NCBI GenBank assembly: GCA_905160935.1
Contig: CAJHZI010000305.1
Coordinates: 115,001 to 179,000, forward strand
DNA: 64,000 nt
Source: Enchytraeus crypticus
Taxonomy: Eukaryota; Annelida; Clitellata; Enchytraeida; Enchytraeidae
Reading direction: 5' to 3'
This document shows, in pieces, positions 14,961-63,918 of this stretch. The number at the start of each line of letters is the position of its first letter. Positions within the stretch are counted from its first letter, which is position 1. The position numbers and the translations under genes are program-made. Under the pieces are notes generated by a model. It had not been told where the DNA came from and ran no database searches. It saw nothing but the letters and a program-made list of their open reading frames with translations.

Positions 14961-15057
14961 CTCTGCTTCTATTTCATCAAATAGGAACTGCCGTCTGAAC
15001 TTTTTCAGTGCCCACCGAGCACTGTCATTATACAGGTCGAGTGGATAGAGCACGTAC
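14961..15057 (-). CDS. CYFIP exon 15, last one present
   Basis: Acceptor AACGTGTAG, one base then 32 codons [20 protein letters not shown] onward, ending FDEIEAE at donor GAG|GTATTC, phase 0. The family continues with a Val-Asn-x-x-Phe-Asp-Gln segment, which is not found anywhere to the left in this window. Confidence 0.95.

Positions 15058-63918: not shown

Follow-up and report, generated by a model that had tools for sequence, protein, structure and literature searches.

Tandem arrays built from copies of exon–intron junctions recur in the genome of Enchytraeus crypticus, and a pooled set of 161 introns supports their anchoring at splice junctions beyond what chance placement gives. They are probably mirage-type repeats: a tandem duplication crossing a junction would be absorbed by the intron, some of these duplications would expand, and their breakpoints would favour exon edges. 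Strong copies of this kind lie at 7 of the 61 junctions rebuilt in the window, the 64,000-nucleotide stretch of DNA analysed here as a whole, and at 18 of 266 junctions of myosin genes from the same genome, together 25 of the 327 junctions sampled.

Junction copies in the window and in the myosin genes

The window corresponds to C222:115001-179000 in a 524-Mb assembly of 802 contigs. Gene models were built by hand from open frames, the sequence itself and alignments to human CYFIP1 and solved GABA-B receptors. Once spliced, the CYFIP exons form an open frame that matches human CYFIP1, the GABA-B receptor exons align with the solved receptors, and the otopetrin gene was identified via Pfam; all 61 rebuilt junctions of the three genes carry GT or AG. 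A purpose-written spliced aligner recovered 25 of the 28 hand-made CYFIP junctions. Exon 8 of the GABA-B receptor was not found in its gene model, and the gap between exons 7 and 9 was left out of the intron set. Each junction was compared in a uniform search with the DNA 10–1000 bp away, and six far-DNA draws per junction within the window served as the null (99th percentile 25, maximum 28). The gene models and repeats that concern the argument are as follows.

9453..10301, minus strand: otopetrin array, running from the last coding bases and containing the predicted stop codon; no splice junction demonstrable
14961..26474, minus strand: CYFIP gene model, exons 1–15
15303..15611, minus strand: CYFIP exon 14 donor (last exonic base 15596); 39 bp unit, six decoy copies scored, GT in five of them
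17309..17567, minus strand: CYFIP exon 12 acceptor (first exonic base 17322); repeat of ~115 bp whose copies hold a GATT tract, AG and 14 exonic bases
19901..20337, minus strand: CYFIP exon 8 donor (20322); eight decoy copies scored, GT in all eight, the best copy matching the last 16 exonic bases
22293..22570, minus strand: CYFIP exon 5 donor (22539); one copy, 95 bp downstream, that includes 32 bases of the exon
23400..23669, minus strand: CYFIP exon 4 donor (23642); copies 69 and 124 bp downstream, with up to 28 exonic bases plus GT
38459..63918, plus strand: GABA-B receptor, exon 1 donor through exon 16
47049..47153, plus strand: GABA-B receptor exon 2 donor (47075); 42 bp unit that includes 27 bases of the exon, decoy dinucleotide GG
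60325..60488, plus strand: GABA-B receptor exon 13 acceptor (60429); a duplicated segment of 101 bp comprising a GATT tract, AG and 60 exonic bases
63481..63738, plus strand: array 21 bp upstream of the GABA-B receptor exon 16 acceptor (63760); one copy junction-like, weak

Strong local copies spanning the junction score 34–68, against a far maximum of 28, and include 14–60 exonic bases. They lie at five donors (CYFIP exons 4, 5, 8 and 14 and GABA-B exon 2) and two acceptors (CYFIP exon 12 and GABA-B exon 13). The preliminary description had reported junction copies at about ten of ~38 exons; the observation is real yet over-counted, since these seven sites hold up, at seven of 61 junctions, and the remaining three do not. 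Among the latter, the GABA-B exon 16 acceptor is weak (score 15, 9 exonic bases), the GABA-B exon 11 acceptor is near chance (score 13 for a copy 550 bp off, with its own far draws reaching 10), and the otopetrin array begins at a predicted stop codon. Four further junctions, namely the donors of CYFIP exons 10 and 15, the acceptor of GABA-B exon 3 and one otopetrin donor, score 29–32 and were left uncounted, sharing merely 6–11 exonic bases with their copies. At GABA-B exon 13, the 60 intronic bases of the copy differ from the exon in nine codons, eight of them synonymously, which looks as though the copy had been coding sequence for a long time.

The CYFIP gene of the window ends after exon 15 (14961). 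The sole second copy seen lies on contig C244. In the two stretches searched it shows 100% identity to the gene of the window; it lacks a match to the exon 15 part and extends as far as position 856 of the 886 of the CYFIP family. The pair may reflect a segmental duplication, a haplotype or an assembly fault. A further, better-matching CYFIP gene is present on C760. Upstream of the GABA-B ligand-binding domain, an open frame at 36747-38459 (plus strand) codes for a stretch of ~480 residues in which N, S and K abound; its scanned part, 37001-38583, has no Pfam match.

Sampling beyond the window covered one gene family, the independent family of myosin heads (PF00063), in nine gene regions and 12 further partial loci. 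A total of 150 introns were modelled and 133 kept; the 17 dropped had weak exon support, and one of these contained N. Here 18 of 266 junctions carry copies (score of at least 24, with at least 12 exonic bases), one of which shares just 4 intronic bases. The donor of C404a (L035, position 661) has 30 scored copies of a 21-bp unit, with GT in 29 of them, and the three closest to the exon match it exactly. Seven loci, on C204, C332, C404, C131 and C193, align best to the C204 myosin model, which by our own reading is class II; three of them lie within ~90 kb on C332, and the set may include duplicate contigs.

Placement of arrays relative to splice junctions

The pooled set comprises 161 introns (133 myosin, 14 CYFIP, 13 GABA-B and 1 otopetrin) with a total of 150,049 bp. 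Local duplications were called uniformly after microsatellite masking, and a cluster was regarded as spanning a junction if it reached at least 12 bases into the exon; 45 clusters confined to the 300-bp flanks were excluded from the count. In the placement null each cluster slides across its own intron and may overhang either exon by up to one unit. Altogether 99 duplication clusters touch introns, and 24 of them span a junction. The remaining 75 span none, which bears out the earlier caution that most arrays are not at junctions. The comparison with shuffled placements proposed at the same time reveals an excess in the sampled introns: the slide null predicts 11.4 spanning clusters, and 5000 permutations give 11.3 on average with none reaching 24. 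CYFIP exons 8 and 12 are outside the 24, probably because microsatellite masking trimmed their arrays, which start 83 and 69 bp away.

The excess persists in all 15 threshold and lag settings tried (p at most 0.003) and is kept each time one gene is left out. Myosins alone contribute 19 spanning clusters versus 9.1 expected, and the window alone gives a weak excess (5 versus 2.3, p 0.045). A junction lies 40 bp or less from 52 array edges, compared with 21.9 expected. Among introns no shorter than 600 bp, 110 in all, 18 of 220 real junctions are spanned; virtual junctions set inward by 200 bp or more in these introns are spanned 3.8 times on average over 400 draws, with a maximum of 9. None of the clusters is wholly exonic in the 133 internal exons (18,657 bp), compared with 0.66 per kb in introns.

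Conserved exonic copies could stay recognisable for longer, but such a detection bias can be dismissed as the chief cause: the excess peaks at high identity (14 versus 3.9 at 0.9 or above, 9 versus 5.3 at 0.8–0.9) and absent below 0.8 (1 versus 2.1), so longer survival of old copies is not what chiefly produces it. Dilution of introns by TE-like DNA, defined by matches to two or more other sampled loci and amounting to 19,643 of the 150,049 intron bp, lowers the excess and does not abolish it (24 versus 12.8 expected after removal). Duplication driven by GC content was also rejected, as the intronic parts of spanning arrays are barely GC-richer than other arrays with units of at least 30 bp (0.349 versus 0.317). 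A dispersed element that resembles a tRNA-derived SINE lies in introns of the window, for example at 25290-25160, 21040-20900 and 15925-15800 (minus strand), and recurs in the myosin loci.

Some of the counts are less marked. Clusters with fewer than three copies show little excess (12 versus 8.2, p 0.08), and units shorter than 30 bp show none (1 versus 0.8). Microsatellite edges number 32 in the first 40 intronic bases, compared with 30 in bases 40–200 and one on the exonic side; given this crowding, repeats may abound next to exons for unrelated reasons. Across the genome, three spaced 9-mers of the donor consensus occur 62 times, only weakly above the 39 of the backward control. Spanned exons have a median length of 147, compared with 133.5 for all exons, a figure that bears on a possible preference for exons about as long as one nucleosome.

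The preliminary description had also proposed a recurrent process instead of a single repeat family, and the units agree with it. Across the 24 spanning arrays, unit lengths range from 21 to 162 bp, and ten arrays match one another over short stretches only (20–74 bp). All ten hold (ATTG)n or its complement, to which most of the matches between arrays may be attributed.

Acceptor tracts and decoy splice sites

The two sides of the intron were considered separately. Donors are spanned 14 times versus 5.7 expected (p 0.001), and the excess is also present in introns that have no GATT tract (10 versus 3.9). The acceptor excess is associated with (GATT)n tracts that are strand-specific and adjoin the AG. 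A tract is found at 7 of 11 spanned acceptors, CYFIP exon 12 having been added by hand, and at 19 of the 150 others (Fisher p 0.0003); acceptors of introns lacking a tract show no excess (4 versus 3.9). A sense (ATTG)n run, equivalent to (GATT)n, of at least 10 bp is present within 80 bp of 26 of the 161 acceptors, and none of the 161 has an antisense run near the 3’ splice site. Examples in the window are the acceptors at 50403 and 60429 (plus strand) and at 17322 and 10842 (minus strand). Genome-wide, (GATT)5 is followed within 12 bases by CAGG 1,203 times, compared with 329 times by CCTG and 412 times by GACG, in counts that include overlapping matches and are uncorrected for 4-mer frequency. 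The pentamer TTGAT fits YTNAY, which we take to be a branch-point form; it is absent from the 20 most enriched 5-mers of acceptors without the tract. Inverted repeats flanking the exon, with ATTG before and CAAT after it, occur in 4 of 133 exons; CAAT after the exon is present in 22 and ATTG before it in 7, so that ~1.2 exons with both would be expected if the two were independent.

Most of the decoy sites that these copies create appear intact in sequence. Among the 106 copies scored at 26 junctions, of which a single array supplies 30, GT or AG is retained in 92, and 68 equal or exceed the authentic site in score, which is a warning for gene predictors. The GT and AG positions are kept no better than adjacent exonic positions, and the unit length is a multiple of three in 8 of 24 arrays, as by chance; together these give no sign of in-frame use of the copies. 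Between the exon and its best copy, the 24 arrays show 69 differences, 39 synonymous and 30 non-synonymous.

Origin of the arrays and known counterparts

The mirage-type origin favoured here would begin with a short tandem duplication (21–162 bp) having one breakpoint in an exon and the other in the adjoining intron. The extra copy would fall inside the intron, the exon-proximal splice site would presumably still work, and the gene would be unharmed. Some duplications would later expand into arrays of up to ~30 copies. Those wholly within exons would be lost by selection, and the absence of exonic clusters fits such a loss. Breakpoints lie near exon edges more often than in other parts of these introns. 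On the acceptor side they are associated with the (GATT)n tracts beside the AG; at donors they would most likely stem from more breakage or slippage at exon edges, for example at nucleosome edges or at transcription-linked nicks, with fill-in at the break ends producing the duplication. Fill-in of 3’ overhangs by CST and Pol alpha-primase is described as a general source of small tandem duplications in animal cells (PMC8355091); the available text of that report contains no link to splice junctions, and fill-in is proposed here as a mechanism only. Sixteen of the 24 arrays can be walked copy by copy, and six of these have at least three decoys. In five of the six, similarity falls with distance from the exon (rank correlation -0.18 to -0.95), as expected, in this small sample, if copies were added near the exon. 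The synonymous excess of 39 to 30 is not predicted by the mirage-type explanation and counts against it.

A more sweeping reading, which is possible although we lean against it, holds that splice junctions are hot spots of tandem duplication in this lineage: exon edges would break or slip repeatedly, each time leaving one more copy next to the exon, arrays would grow outward, and the genome would be full of intact decoys that the spliceosome must ignore, with the branch-point-like (GATT)n tracts of acceptors both serving the 3’ splice site and seeding duplications. Acceptors without the tract, clusters of fewer than three copies and units below 30 bp, with their little or no excess, argue against so general a process and also count against the mirage-type origin, as do the microsatellite crowding, the 62 versus 39 donor-pattern count, the restriction to one family outside the window and the chance expectation for introns with ~150 free bases. 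A purely passive origin would require an equal duplication rate everywhere, with exonic duplications purged and intron-reaching ones surviving, some of them across junctions. We consider it unlikely, because it does not account for the excess by permutation (24 versus 11.3), at real over virtual junctions (18 versus 3.8) and at donors (14 versus 5.7), nor for its being strongest in the most similar arrays; the lack of wholly exonic clusters in 133 exons, the acceptors without a GATT tract that match the uniform expectation (4 versus 3.9), the chance-level proportion of unit lengths divisible by three (8 of 24) and the weak genome-wide donor-pattern count (62 versus 39) are all consistent with it. 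Somewhat less likely again is that introns were far shorter when the arrays arose and that later interior growth left the arrays beside exons. If only ~150 bp of intron had been free, chance would yield 25 spanning clusters and so suffice, and microsatellites likewise crowd beside exons; however, TE-like DNA makes up just 19,643 of 150,049 intron bp, and the youngest-looking arrays, with identity of at least 0.95, are in excess too (6 versus 1.8 after TE removal).

That selection maintains the copies, whether to provide alternative ends of exons or as reservoirs of splice sites, is improbable: GT and AG are no better preserved than their neighbours, unit lengths have no multiple-of-three bias, and most affected introns have array-free counterparts in paralogues, even though 92 of 106 copies carry GT or AG, 68 at least equal the authentic score, and synonymous differences prevail both in the GABA-B exon 13 copy (8 of 9) and over the 24 arrays (39 to 30). 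Under the Rogers model, an intron arises when a segment that holds AGGT is duplicated in tandem. The preliminary description had suggested that the arrays could be relics of such intron birth, and this we regard as highly improbable. The arrays resemble that model in the tandem duplication of a segment including a splice-like site, several units do hold AGGT, as donor sites generally do, and the model was put forward for the amphioxus mirages, according to the available part of the report (PMC3087553). It predicts, however, in-register copies of the two boundaries and a new intron position. The donor boundary is copied in register at the acceptor boundary in none of the 161 introns at a score of at least 8 (0.17 expected), and mean boundary similarity in register is 1.01 versus 1.04 for the null over the same introns. 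For 14 of the 18 affected myosin introns, a paralogue without the array has an intron at the same position and in the same phase, and for the other 4 none does; most arrays are thus younger than their introns. On these two comparisons, intron birth is rejected for most introns.

The closest known counterparts to the arrays are the mirages of amphioxus, known from Adh3, the globins Gb6 and Gb9, PGBD5 and troponin C in the available portions of two reports (PMC3087553; PMC3902484), and the arrays here would appear to be of the same kind. Mirages are there described as minisatellite-like tandem copies of exon–intron boundaries on the donor or acceptor side, with a unit length that differs from gene to gene and with AG or GT in many copies; splicing and length polymorphism are reported for some. 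The present arrays likewise have boundary-spanning units (7 of 61 and 18 of 266 junctions), mostly retained AG or GT (92 of 106) and varied, unrelated units (21–162 bp). In contrast to the amphioxus mirages, reported gene by gene in lancelets, they are found at 25 of 327 junctions, were tested against placement nulls and are partly tied to (GATT)n. The GFP family, plentiful in Branchiostoma, gave no match in the genome, in a search whose controls gave none either, which is weak evidence against a lancelet host. As far as the portions of the literature available to a limited search extend, no such arrays have been recognised outside lancelets, human variable boundary repeats excepted (PMC2812944). 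A genome with this many positive junctions extends what the available reports document from a few lancelet genes, and it permits tests of how the spliceosome chooses among intact copies, of exon edges as hot spots and of arrays becoming introns. The human repeats, as presented in the available part of that report, are internal tandem repeats of segmental-duplication genes that meet an exon–intron boundary and may alter splicing; they differ from the present arrays in being variable, in belonging to young paralogues and in changing the coding sequence in at least half of the cases (PMC2812944).
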